DNA of 41,522 bases from Methanothrix sp. (lineage in GTDB: Archaea; Halobacteriota; Methanosarcinia; Methanotrichales; Methanotrichaceae): positions 1 through 41,522 of the forward strand of contig NZ_JAOAKP010000011.1 in the NCBI RefSeq assembly GCF_026419855.1. Reading direction: 5' to 3'. The position numbers and the translations under genes were made by a program. The notes under the pieces were generated by a model that was not told the DNA's origin, did not search any database, and was given only the letters and a program-made list of their open reading frames with translations. Shown piece by piece: positions 34,339 through 39,733 of the stretch (within the stretch, counting starts at the first letter, position 1; each line of letters starts with the position of its first letter).

Positions 34339-35505
34339 GGTAGTCTACCCCAGCTATGTTTATATCACATTACCTGGGAAGTAATACTTTAGGTAATGAT
34401 CGATGAACTCAAGCGAGCTGGTTCCAGCGGGATCATTCTGCTGGAACGAGGATTGTCCGGACTATGGCAAGATAGATGGTGGTAACATAGTCAAGTATGG
34501 GCGGACGGGTAAAGGTACACAGAGGTTGAAGTGTAAGACATGCGGGAAGACGTTTGTTGAGAACAAGGGGACCATATTCTATGGTCTGCATCACAGTCAG
34601 GATGAGATTCTGGAATGTCTTGCCATGCTGGCTGAGAGGAACAGTCTGGCATCGATTCACAGGATAAAGGGGATCAAAGAGGAGACAGTGATGAGCTGGC
34701 TTCGGAAAGCTGCAAATCACGTCAAGGAGATCGAGGCGTTACTGCTGGCAAAATACGATCTTACTCGAGTTCAGCTCGATGCGATGTGGACTTACGTAGG
34801 CCACAAAGGGGAAAAAGTGGTCATCCAGAAGACTCAGACCGAGGCAGCTTCTGGCGTGGAACGGCGATAGAGATCGATACGAGGTTGAGAGTTGGTCGTG
34901 CGATCGGAAAGACTGAAGGAGAGGTTGCCATGAGCATGATGTCTCAAATACGGGACCGATGCAACCCAGAAATGCCACCTGCATTATGCAGCGATGGTAA
35001 CGATAGTTATCCGGAGGCCATGCTCGCCACCTGGGGAACTGTACCTGAATATTCCGGTCGAGGCCGACCTCCAACTCGGAAACAGCCACATCCAGAGTGG
35101 AAATGCATCCAGGTAACCAAACATCGATCGGGAAGCAGGCTGACCGGCATAAGTTATAAAGTAGTCTACGGAGATCCCGAAGATGTCATCAAGCTGATGG
35201 GCATCAACAACTCGTACGTCGAACGAACCAACCTCACCTCAAGGCAGATGAATGGCCGAATGGTACGAAAGACGCTCTCTTACTCAAAAGATGAAGAGAT
35301 GCTGAAAGCATCATGCATACTGGAGGACTGGATCTACAACCTGACACGACCTGTAAAATCATTACGTCTCGAGGTCAATGACGGCAAACGAAAATGGCAA
35401 CCCAGATCTCCAGCCATGGCCGCTGGCCTGACCGATCACATATGGACTCTAAAAGAACTTATGACTATGGTGGTAGTGCCAACAACATGTAGGGGGTAGA
35501 CTACC
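34339..35505 (+). mobile_element. IS1-like insertion sequence
   Basis: 1167 bp with inverted ends GGTAGTCTACCCC on both sides and partly matching bases beyond (ATGTT). It contains a two-frame transposase. I find no target duplication (left flank ATCATTCG, right flank TGTGGATC), so the element may have been rearranged after insertion. Its ends match those of the family E MITEs at 4091 and 23444, which keep 8- and 9-bp duplications as IS1 makes. Confidence 0.85.
34403..35499 (+). CDS. IS1-family transposase in two frames (-1 shift)
   Basis: Frame one (34403-34870) encodes a zinc ribbon ([12 protein letters not shown] ... [10 protein letters not shown]) and HTH ([18 protein letters not shown]), then QLDAMWTYV with the first catalytic Asp. 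The protein continues one frame back, reading through [30 protein letters not shown] (second Asp) and [14 protein letters not shown] (Glu), to a stop at 35499. The crossing point is probably the five-A run at 34812-34816. Either programmed -1 frameshifting, as IS1 uses, or loss of one A would explain it. All DDE residues survive, so the element may still be active. Confidence 0.82.
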
Positions 35506-36550: not shown

Positions 36551-38560
36551 CTAATTGTTACGGAAGCTCATCAGCAGGCTCTCGTAGAAGATCCTTTCCT
36601 TCCCCTCTGTCGTCCTGACGAGCCGGTCGAGTATCAGCTCCGGCGTTGATCTGGCAAGATGGTTGTACCTGGGGCTCCTGCTGAGTATGAGATTGTTGTT
36701 ATCATCTAAACCCTCTGCCTCTATCCCGTCCACCCTGAGAGCTGTCTTTGAGAATCTGCGTATCTCTTCTGCAAGATGGCTCACGAAAAGGGCCACAGAG
36801 CCGTTCTCATGTACCATATCGAGTATCGATGCGATTATCCTAGCAGAAGCCCCGGGCTCTGTTATTGCCTCCATCTCGTCCGCGAGCACGAGCTTCTGTT
36901 TCTCGGTGGCGACTGCGGAGAGCTTTCTCATCGTGCTCTCGAACGCTCCTGCGCTGAGGGTGCCGCTGCTCTTTGCAAAGAAGTAAAGCTCCTCGAAGAT
37001 CGATATCCTGCACTCGCTCGCGGGAACTGGAAGACCCATGTGTGCGAGTATCGCTATCTGTGCCATCAGCTCCAGGAGCGATGTCTTGCCGCCGGAGTTC
37101 ACCCCGCTGAGTATCGCGGCCCTCTCGCTGTACTCTGGGCCCCCGGATGCTCCCAGGGTGTAGCTCACAGGCTCCGGATTCTGGATGAAGAGATGCCTTC
37201 CATCGCGGAATCCAATTCCCGGGGCGTCGATGAGCTCAGGCATCGTGAGATCGCATGATATACCGAAGCTCCCGATGGCGTAGAGATAGTCGAGCTGCAT
37301 GAGCCTTTTTATGAGATTCGCCGCGATATCATCCATGCTCATCAGTGATCTGGCGATCCCTCTCCTCCAGCTCAGCGCGTCTGACTCTCTCTTCCTTCTC
37401 AGCTCAAGCTCCAGCTGGCGCAGAGCCCTGTGGTTGATCTCGAGAGGGTATTTTATCCCATCAGGTAGTATCTCCTCAAGCCATGCGGCCTCGCCACCTC
37501 TCAGGCTCAGATCCGCGGCGATCCTCGCCCTTGCATCTGTTATCACAGATTTGAAGATCCCCTGCATCTGCATCTCAAACACATCTCTGATCAGATCTCC
37601 GCGCTCCAGCGCCCTGAGGATATCCGGGCCGCCGAGAGTCACGGAGCTCGCCTCTATGCGCTCGCGCAGCTCAATGTTCGCCCGGGCGAGCGCAGAGTCG
37701 ATCGCTGCAGGTAACCCTCTCAGAATAACATCAATGCGTGATATGCCTGATGAATTTGTGTCATCGAACAGCCGTCTGAGCGCATCCCTGAGCTTATCCA
37801 GACCTTCGAACTTCTCGATGCCCCTCTCCTCAAGCATGGCTGCGAGCTCCATGGCAGCCTCTAGAGTATCTCTGTTCTCTGTATAGAAGCTCAGGACTGC
37901 CTCAGGGGCAATGTACCAGATCTCAAGACGCTCCGCGATTTCCACTCCGGGAAGGGATGCCCCCGGATCGCCAAGAACGATCACGTGATCGTAGCCGCTG
38001 GCCGTGTCACGCATCTCCCCCAAGCTCTCTGCCAGATGAATGTCGAGGAAGCGGTCAAAGCCCATCGATCTCGCCCTTGCGAGCTCCTCTGGGGATCTTG
38101 CGACAATCGCCCTTCCTCTTATCCTCTGCGCCTCCCTCCGCCTGAGCGGCTTTATCCTGCGCATGAGATCCCTTACGTCGCCGAGCCTTCTGCGGAGATC
38201 GACGGCTCGCATCGAGATCGAGCGCATCTCATTTATGAGCTCCGGAGATCCGGATGGAAAAAGAGTGGCTATCCTCATCCTGGCATACGTGGTGTTCGCG
38301 TGCTCCGCCATTCTGTTCAGGACTGCTCTGTATATACTCTCGGCCTCATCGGTGGCCAGGAAGGATTCGGGAGAGACGCGGTATCGCAGGCCTCTGGCTG
38401 CTCTGACCGTGGCTATGGCCTGGCGCTCCCCGATAGCCGCCCTCAGATTCTCCATATCCTCATCTGCGATCGCCCTGAGGGCCACCTCCTCGCTCCCGAA
38501 ATGTGAGATGAGACGCTCCCTCAGGCGAGGGCCGACTCCGGGAATATCCTGCAATCTCAC
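36551..38560 (-). CDS. MutS-like ATPase with N-terminal HhH
   Basis: A 669-aa archaeal MutS-related protein. The N-terminus is a helix-hairpin-helix (LQDIPGVGPRLRERLISHFG), the middle a long helical lever/clamp-like region, and the C-terminus the MutS ATPase with Walker A ILSGVNSGGKTSLLELMAQIA, the signature ESTMRKLSAV, Walker B KLVLADEMEAIT and the VSHLAEE switch. It lacks the mismatch-recognition domain and the Smr nuclease, so a role in recombination or structure-specific DNA binding is more likely than classic mismatch repair. The GTG start stands 25 bases from the TATA centre, which implies a leaderless mRNA. Confidence 0.9.
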   Translation of the reverse strand: MRLQDIPGVGPRLRERLISHFGSEEVALRAIADEDMENLRAAIGERQAIATVRAARGLRYRVSPESFLATDEAESIYRAVLNRMAEHANTTYARMRIATLFPSGSPELINEMRSISMRAVDLRRRLGDVRDLMRRIKPLRRREAQRIRGRAIVARSPEELARARSMGFDRFLDIHLAESLGEMRDTASGYDHVIVLGDPGASLPGVEIAERLEIWYIAPEAVLSFYTENRDTLEAAMELAAMLEERGIEKFEGLDKLRDALRRLFDDTNSSGISRIDVILRGLPAAIDSALARANIELRERIEASSVTLGGPDILRALERGDLIRDVFEMQMQGIFKSVITDARARIAADLSLRGGEAAWLEEILPDGIKYPLEINHRALRQLELELRRKRESDALSWRRGIARSLMSMDDIAANLIKRLMQLDYLYAIGSFGISCDLTMPELIDAPGIGFRDGRHLFIQNPEPVSYTLGASGGPEYSERAAILSGVNSGGKTSLLELMAQIAILAHMGLPVPASECRISIFEELYFFAKSSGTLSAGAFESTMRKLSAVATEKQKLVLADEMEAITEPGASARIIASILDMVHENGSVALFVSHLAEEIRRFSKTALRVDGIEAEGLDDNNNLILSRSPRYNHLARSTPELILDRLVRTTEGKERIFYESLLMSFRNN

Positions 38561-38576
38561 AGCATGGAGTGGTATG

Positions 38577-38593
38577 CTTTCTATATATGAAAG
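38577..38593. promoter_or_regulatory. Palindromic TATA element between divergent genes
   Basis: CTTTCTATATATGAAAG is symmetric and can serve both strands. Its centre is 25 bases from the GTG of the MutS-like gene (minus) and would start a plus transcript near 38610, 23 bases before the FtsZ-like start. Confidence 0.6.
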
Positions 38594-38632
38594 TCCTCAT
38601 ACGATCTGGGAGAAGCAGAGGGGTGTGAGATC

Positions 38633-39508
38633 TTGAGCAATCCTGGCATGCCCGGGATCATCGTGGCCGGATTCGGCTATGGTGCTGATCTTGTGCGTCG
38701 CGTGGCCCGGAGCAGTGCATGTGGCTGTGGGGATGTGATATGCACCAATAACAGCTCCTGCGCCGTCTCCATTTACAGTGAGCGAGGTGCTCAGAGGCAT
38801 GAATCGAAAACACTGAGCTCTGGAGAGTTTCCTGAGATTCTGGGCAGCGGAGCTGTTGTTTTCATGATTTCAGACACAAATGAATGGAAACGCACGTCGC
38901 GCCTTGCTGCCAGGATTGCGGAAGCGCATGATGTCGCGGTCATGGTTTTTCTGGTTGCGGATGCAGAGGGCGATGATCAGCAGCCCTTGCCCGAAGATCG
39001 GCGCCTCCGCCACTCCAACCATGAATGGATCTCCAAAAGGAGCTCTGTGGTGGTCGTCGACGCTCCTTCAGATTTGGATAATGTCGAGCTGCGCCTCGCT
39101 AAAATGATCGCATGCATCTCGAACATGCTGCTCGAGCCCTCCATAATAAATCTGGACCTCGCGGATCTCAGGACTGTGATGCGTTGTGGCACAGAGGCAT
39201 GCATCATCTCCGGAGCAGGCAGATCTCCGGAGAGCGCCCTGCGGGATGCTCTCGATAAATCGCTGAGCCTGATAGACACAAGTCGAGCGAAGGGCTGTCT
39301 GCTGCACATCACAGGCGGGGATACTCTGACGCTTAGGGATGCGAACCACATAGCGAAGAGCATGACGGGAGCGCTAGATCCACGGGCAAATGTGATATGG
39401 GGGATGAGGGTCAGGGATGATCTGGAGATGATAGAGATCACAGCGGTGCTCACAGGGAAAAATATAATGCGGAGTTCCACAAGAACAACCATGAGCTGGA
39501 CGATCTGA
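38633..39508 (+). CDS. Divergent FtsZ-family protein without the GTP-binding signature
   Basis: A 291-aa protein. The C-terminal half aligns by eye with archaeal FtsZ: INLDLADLRTVM, then a GCLLHITGGDTLTLRDAN segment and ALDPRANVIWGMRVRDDLE ending ITAVLTG. The N-terminal half keeps the Rossmann start IIVAGFGYGADLVRRV and the following strands, but where FtsZ has GGGTGTG it reads ISDTNEWKRTS. GTP hydrolysis and normal polymerisation are therefore unlikely. It may regulate FtsZ or form another filament (inference). The start is TTG, with GAGGGGTG six bases upstream; an ATG five codons on is an alternative. Two tiny ORFs follow closely and may be one operon. Confidence 0.8.
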   Translation: MSNPGMPGIIVAGFGYGADLVRRVARSSACGCGDVICTNNSSCAVSIYSERGAQRHESKTLSSGEFPEILGSGAVVFMISDTNEWKRTSRLAARIAEAHDVAVMVFLVADAEGDDQQPLPEDRRLRHSNHEWISKRSSVVVVDAPSDLDNVELRLAKMIACISNMLLEPSIINLDLADLRTVMRCGTEACIISGAGRSPESALRDALDKSLSLIDTSRAKGCLLHITGGDTLTLRDANHIAKSMTGALDPRANVIWGMRVRDDLEMIEITAVLTGKNIMRSSTRTTMSWTI

Positions 39509-39515
39509 GGGGCGG

Positions 39516-39650
39516 ATGGTGCAGATCAAGCAGGTTGATTTCTCAACAAAGCGCATGTCGAAGGCTGAAGGAACAGACGCAGATCCACCTCTCAGGCCGA
39601 ACCGGCCCGCTCACATGGGCATGATACTGAAATATGGGGAGGGGATATGA
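39516..39650 (+). CDS. 44-aa hydrophilic micropeptide
   Basis: It begins eight bases after the FtsZ-like stop, with GAGG in front of the ATG. The peptide is basic and Pro-rich (DPPLRPNRPAH) with KYGEG at the end. There is no family match. Its TGA overlaps the ATG of the next ORF (ATGA), which supports real translation. Confidence 0.5.
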   Translation: MVQIKQVDFSTKRMSKAEGTDADPPLRPNRPAHMGMILKYGEGI

Positions 39651-39733
39651 CAGCAGAGCTCGGCGCGCTGGCAGTTTCGCTGATCCTGATAGCGGCTCTG
39701 ATCTACAGCATAAAGCTCTACATGGAGGTCTGA
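39647..39733 (+). CDS. 28-aa single-transmembrane micropeptide
   Basis: MTAELGALAVSLILIAALIY followed by SIKLYMEV: one membrane helix with a short charged end. A strong GGAGGGGAT ribosome site lies directly before the ATG, and the start overlaps the previous ORF. The end overlaps the 3' end of tyrS by 16 bases in convergent orientation. It might anchor the FtsZ-like protein to the membrane (inference). Confidence 0.55.
   Translation: MTAELGALAVSLILIAALIYSIKLYMEV

Follow-up and report, generated by a model that had tools for sequence, protein, structure and literature searches.

Sequence comparisons identify the 291-aa product encoded at positions 38633 to 39508 (forward strand) of the window, the 41,522-nucleotide stretch of Methanothrix sp. 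DNA analyzed here, as the FtsZ2 orthologue of Methanotrichaceae in a degenerate form. As judged from alignments and substitution rates, this pseudo-FtsZ has lost most of its nucleotide-binding signature and also the C-terminal motif through which SepF binding would be expected; its C-terminal domain (CTD) evolves under purifying selection and retains an intact T7 loop. It is possible that the protein no longer builds filaments and instead regulates the FtsZ that remains.

Identity and genomic setting of pseudo-FtsZ

The 291-aa product matches the Pfam domain FtsZ_C (PF12327; E 9e-15, 55.1 bits against a cut-off of 27) and gave no match to the Pfam Tubulin/FtsZ GTPase domain PF00091. Residues 79 to 89 (38866–38898, forward strand) read ISDTNEWKRTS in place of the T4 signature GGGTGTG, and the original prediction of an FtsZ-like protein whose GTP-binding signature is gone is thus borne out. 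With the NCBIfam equivalog model for ftsZ (TIGR00065), pseudo-FtsZ scored 68.7 bits, below the cut-off of 295.2, whereas FtsZ1 of the same genome and an intact FtsZ2 scored 444.5 and 377.8 bits, respectively. Sequence matches in the PDB span only residues 133 to 281, approximately. Structure prediction returned an FtsZ fold: an AlphaFold model from a 33-row alignment, with the window protein first, had a pTM of 0.80 and a mean pLDDT of 79, and all Foldseek matches listed were FtsZ (best E 1.6e-15; TM about 0.55–0.67). CTD blocks mostly reached pLDDT 83 to 97, and those of the nucleotide domain (NTD) were less certain (46–90). The alignment is mostly FtsZ2 because only one pseudo-FtsZ relative (L099) came from the named genome collection.

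Orthologues were sought in 50 genomes of the order, all from one family, the Methanotrichaceae. An open pseudo-FtsZ orthologue was found in all six sampled genomes of the genus (Methanothrix thermoacetophila group), a genus of acetate-consuming methanogens, so the protein is conserved, and in most other family genomes pseudo-FtsZ matches a full-length second FtsZ better than it matches FtsZ1. In trees with named archaeal FtsZs, pseudo-FtsZ falls inside the Methanotrichaceae FtsZ2 clade, with support of 99/98 for the full-length protein and 97/94 for the CTD only. The FtsZ2 label of this clade, in a tree built without Haloferax FtsZ2, derives from two observations: the clade stands apart from the FtsZ1-type paralogue, and it scores lower against MjFtsZ1. 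In the PDB search, the first FtsZ, which is FtsZ1-like, scored 419 bits against MjFtsZ1 and the more distant second FtsZ 306 bits. The long branch of pseudo-FtsZ leaves its exact sister within the family unsure. By these trees the protein is a degenerate family orthologue and not a new kind of protein, and the trees also rule out a new tubulin family.

All six genus genomes retain FtsZ1, CetZ and SepF. Separate FtsZ1 and CetZ genes (C60 and C70, respectively, in the window genome) rule out a duplicate of either. Compared with PDB 3zid, pseudo-FtsZ is not the CetZ orthologue, and every genus-mate has a CetZ of its own. The Methanosaeta thermophila of the CetZ structure is the species now called Methanothrix thermoacetophila. 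The window genome is assigned to the M. thermoacetophila group on the CetZ of its genus-mate G046, which aligns with 3zid over its full length, with no mismatch in the alignment shown. A crystal structure of M. thermophila CetZ is named in the literature (PMC9856176).

Pseudo-FtsZ starts with TTG in the window copy and with ATG in five relatives; the earlier interval start, 38577, merely includes upstream DNA. A TATA-like box, GCTTTCTATATATGAA (38575–38590, forward strand), is identical in all six genus genomes and is probably a promoter. The box sits in a gap that pseudo-FtsZ shares with a divergent MutS-like gene (36551–38560, reverse strand), whose product has a MutS domain V and a helix-hairpin-helix. 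Further upstream, two overlapping ORFs at 34403–35499 (forward strand) resemble, judging from the translation, an IS1-type transposase in two frames; Pfam gave no match for the second of the two. A scan of the region with Rfam returned no known RNA family above noise.

Nucleotide site, T7 loop and selection

Residue loss was gauged at 96 near-invariant sites of 26 canonical FtsZ2s. Of these, 55 lie in the nucleotide domain, where the two pseudo-FtsZs in the alignment both keep 10, and 41 lie in helix H7 and the CTD (39089–39460, forward strand), where both keep 27. The NTD is shortened to about 150 residues. Its strand S1 and loop T1 persist as a remnant, IIVAGFGYGADLVRRV (residues 9–24; 38657–38704, forward strand), in which I9, G13, G15 and G17 are retained and the nucleotide-contacting Asn is lost (N to D at residue 19). 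The T4 motif is gone in all six genus genomes, the window copy keeping just one Thr. The T7 loop, PSIINLDLADLR (residues 169–180; 39137–39172, forward strand), is kept: INLDLAD, with the NxDxxD pattern formed by Asn173, Asp175 and Asp178, is present in six of six. Conservation of the CTD core extends well past T7 (GCLLHITGG, NVIWG). The C-terminal tails are ragged and lack the ID motif in all six genomes; many relatives have ..IDVI[KR]. In G042 an internal stop falls past the CTD, so that the reading frame ends early, at about residue 277.

Across the genus, the pseudo-FtsZ ORF is 68 to 81% identical to the window copy. Pairwise dN/dS among the six genomes was 0.42 to 0.66 for the NTD and 0.13 to 0.35 for the CTD, and FtsZ1 of the same genomes was almost invariant (about 0.01). 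Intact FtsZ2 pairs gave 0.03 to 0.13 (NTD) and 0.02 to 0.11 (CTD), so that even the pseudo-FtsZ CTD is under relaxed constraint by comparison. Pairs of degraded copies from g8 gave 0.43 to 0.59 (NTD) and 0.22 to 0.39 (CTD); the two lineages are thus alike, with a relaxed NTD and a less relaxed CTD. In a neutral simulation with six lineages and 0.15 substitutions per site each, a mean of 16 stops accumulated and none of 300 replicates stayed stop-free. A strict pseudogene is ruled out by the reading frame, open in all six genomes, and by the constraint on the CTD.

Elsewhere in the family, FtsZ2 ranges from intact to lost. T4 is intact in most of g9, in g3, g4, g5, g7 and g11 and in some of g8. 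Degradation of the GTP site falls in g8 and g6, with T4 reading GLGDGTGTF in G005, GLGDGAGGG in G014 and G009 and GLGDAAAGG in G012, and being degraded also in G007, G011 and G013. The second T7 Asp is Gly in G011 and G013, both g8 genomes with a degraded GTP site, which limits any argument from T7 to the genus of the window rather than to every degenerate lineage. In G047 (C67; L087, L199), ftsZ2 is broken by several frameshifts and stops. FtsZ2 was not found in six of the 50 family genomes (G001, G017, G019, G024, G027 and G038), where its role is dispensable if it is wholly absent; most family genomes were assembled from metagenomes, where a single absence may reflect a gap, but five of these six are at least 93% complete. 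This graded series, beside a near-invariant FtsZ1, amounts to a natural experiment on FtsZ2 function.

Small open reading frames behind ftsZ2

The layout of three ORFs is as originally described: the 291-aa ORF is followed by a 44-aa ORF (39516–39650, forward strand) and, through an ATGA overlap at 39647–39650, by a 28-aa ORF encoding a single-helix membrane micropeptide (39647–39733, forward strand). Of the checks that the original prediction had set, the FtsZ fold is confirmed, and synteny in relatives holds for the 28-aa ORF and fails for the 44-aa ORF. A counterpart of the latter is recognizable in one of five relatives, shortened (G045), and in the other four the start is absent or the frame interrupted; it probably arose by chance or is what remains of the C-terminal tail that FtsZ2 has lost.

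The micropeptide belongs to a family of 28 to 31 aa with a single helix and the C-terminal signature Y[SG][IV][RK]LYLE[IV] (window copy; L075–L098). Searches of Pfam and NCBIfam gave no match for the window copy. By profile search, 36 of the 50 family genomes each carry a single confident copy, and none was found in g8, g11, G001 or G005; G039 is uninformative because its contig ends. Among 238 genomes of the class, the same type of search gave just weak partial matches outside the family and no convincing copy, and the region behind ftsZ2 in other archaea showed no peptide resembling it. In all 31 genomes that have both genes, the peptide lies directly downstream of ftsZ2 (25 adjacencies checked by sequence, six by coordinates). 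These comprise the six pseudo-FtsZ genomes, where the peptide adjoins pseudo-FtsZ and is 93 to 100% identical, G047, where it is intact behind the broken gene, and 24 others with coding copies of FtsZ2, mostly of the intact GTPase type. The peptide persists without FtsZ2 in five genomes.

Among 19 divergent g9 copies, pN/pS was 0.29 with a pS of 0.52, and the peptide gene therefore behaves as coding sequence under selection. Within the genus, its silent sites (39656–39730; L070–L074) had a pS of 0.08 versus a dS of 0.13 to 0.67 for the pseudo-FtsZ CTD, which hints at extra constraint at the nucleotide level. A real, conserved membrane-peptide gene therefore adjoins pseudo-FtsZ, as had been claimed, but it is not dedicated to it. 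We infer that the family has in this peptide a membrane gene in its own right, which is inherited along with ftsZ2 and is unneeded for the mechanism proposed below. A conserved 28- to 31-aa membrane peptide behind ftsZ2 is a candidate divisome component.

Proposed action on FtsZ1 and alternative readings

In SaFtsZ filaments, Asn208, Asp210 and Asp213 of the upper-subunit T7 loop act on the GTP of the subunit below by positioning the water that attacks it, and the growing end is proposed to expose T7 (PMC8936486). Asn173, Asp175 and Asp178 of pseudo-FtsZ match these catalytic residues, and FtsZ1 keeps the receiving NTDAQ motif. We tentatively propose, with a confidence falling a little short of even, that pseudo-FtsZ is a GTP-independent accessory subunit of the FtsZ1 ring that docks through T7 on FtsZ1 and caps the filament or triggers hydrolysis. 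It would no longer bind GTP nor build a filament of its own, and would attach by its T7/S9 face to the GTP face that an FtsZ1 subunit exposes. Having lost its own GTP face, it would offer no site for another subunit, and the FtsZ1 end would be capped; alternatively, the docked protein would complete the FtsZ1 catalytic site and hydrolysis would be faster. With the T7 face kept and the GTP face absent, structure and conservation suggest that docking would be possible only at the opposite, GTP-exposed end. That an FtsZ pseudo-GTPase works in trans in the full sense, lending T7 to FtsZ1 and ending the filament as a built-in cap and GTPase activator, we consider rather unlikely. Against docking, the conservation of T7 could serve folding or self-association.

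The alternative of slow decay, possible although we would not expect it to be correct, holds that FtsZ2 is becoming dispensable in sheathed chain-formers and that pseudo-FtsZ is a stage toward loss, with no specific new mechanism. The intact, degraded, broken and absent copies found across the family favor it, as do the ragged tail without an ID motif and an NTD dN/dS of about 0.5. Members of the Methanotrichaceae grow as sheathed cell chains (PMC10598746), and it is plausible, if conjectural, that sheathed chains have less need of FtsZ2-type constriction and so relax selection, which leaves the retention of FtsZ2 elsewhere in the family unexplained. Decay does not sit easily with a frame open in six of six genomes where about 16 stops are expected neutrally, with the low dN/dS of the CTD, with the invariant promoter-like box or with the retained T7 residues.

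Those T7 residues are also left unexplained if the CTD is a scaffold or adaptor that stays clear of the nucleotide site of FtsZ1, whether as a dimer or by binding SepF, CetZ or some other component of the divisome. The conserved core past T7 and its confidently predicted fold speak for such a role, which we nonetheless regard as improbable; the tail motif expected for archaeal FtsZ–SepF binding (PMC8178401) is lost. A new two-part regulator made of pseudo-FtsZ and its own membrane peptide is the least credible reading and very improbable: the invariable adjacency and near identity within the genus are what it would predict, but the peptide also stands behind FtsZ2 in the 24 other genomes and outlasts FtsZ2 where that gene is missing or broken.

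The proposed accessory subunit has partial parallels. Many archaea encode two FtsZs, and in Haloferax volcanii the FtsZ2 ring is stabilized by FtsZ1, whereas FtsZ2 takes part in constriction (PMC8178401). Pseudo-FtsZ resembles euryarchaeal FtsZ2, such as that of H. volcanii, in its orthology by tree, its CTD and T7 loop and the presence of FtsZ1 and SepF alongside, and differs in lacking the GTP signature and the C-terminal ID motif and in its NTD of about 150 residues. Nmar_1262 of Nitrosopumilus maritimus (PMC3684127) is likewise an archaeal FtsZ without the GTP motif (AGKAGSA) and is non-polymerizing; however, it also lacks the T7 loop that pseudo-FtsZ keeps, and N. maritimus is thought to divide by Cdv proteins, whereas pseudo-FtsZ genomes keep FtsZ1. 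FtsZl1 and FtsZl2 (Makarova and Koonin 2010, PMC2875224) are also divergent members of the FtsZ–tubulin superfamily, but both families retain the GTP signature, and FtsZl1 is without similarity to the FtsZ CTD, the reverse of pseudo-FtsZ. MciZ of Bacillus subtilis caps filament ends (PMC8936486), the same kind of action as proposed here, but it is an unrelated peptide that binds the bottom (T7) face, whereas pseudo-FtsZ would offer T7 to the top (GTP) face.

No description of an FtsZ2 that lacks the GTP site and keeps T7 was found in the open-access literature on Methanotrichaceae, nor one of this protein in Methanothrix; according to one paper, data on genetic determinants of the cytoskeleton were lacking for the family (PMC10598746). 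A copy that has lost GTP binding and kept T7 would be a natural separation of the two parts of the FtsZ active site. Another tubulin-like gene is present in all six genus genomes (L003, L064–L068): it encodes a protein of about 510 to 520 aa (516 aa in the window genome) that contains GGGTGTG, gives a weak Tubulin match below the Pfam cut-off and perhaps represents a divergent FtsZ-like family.
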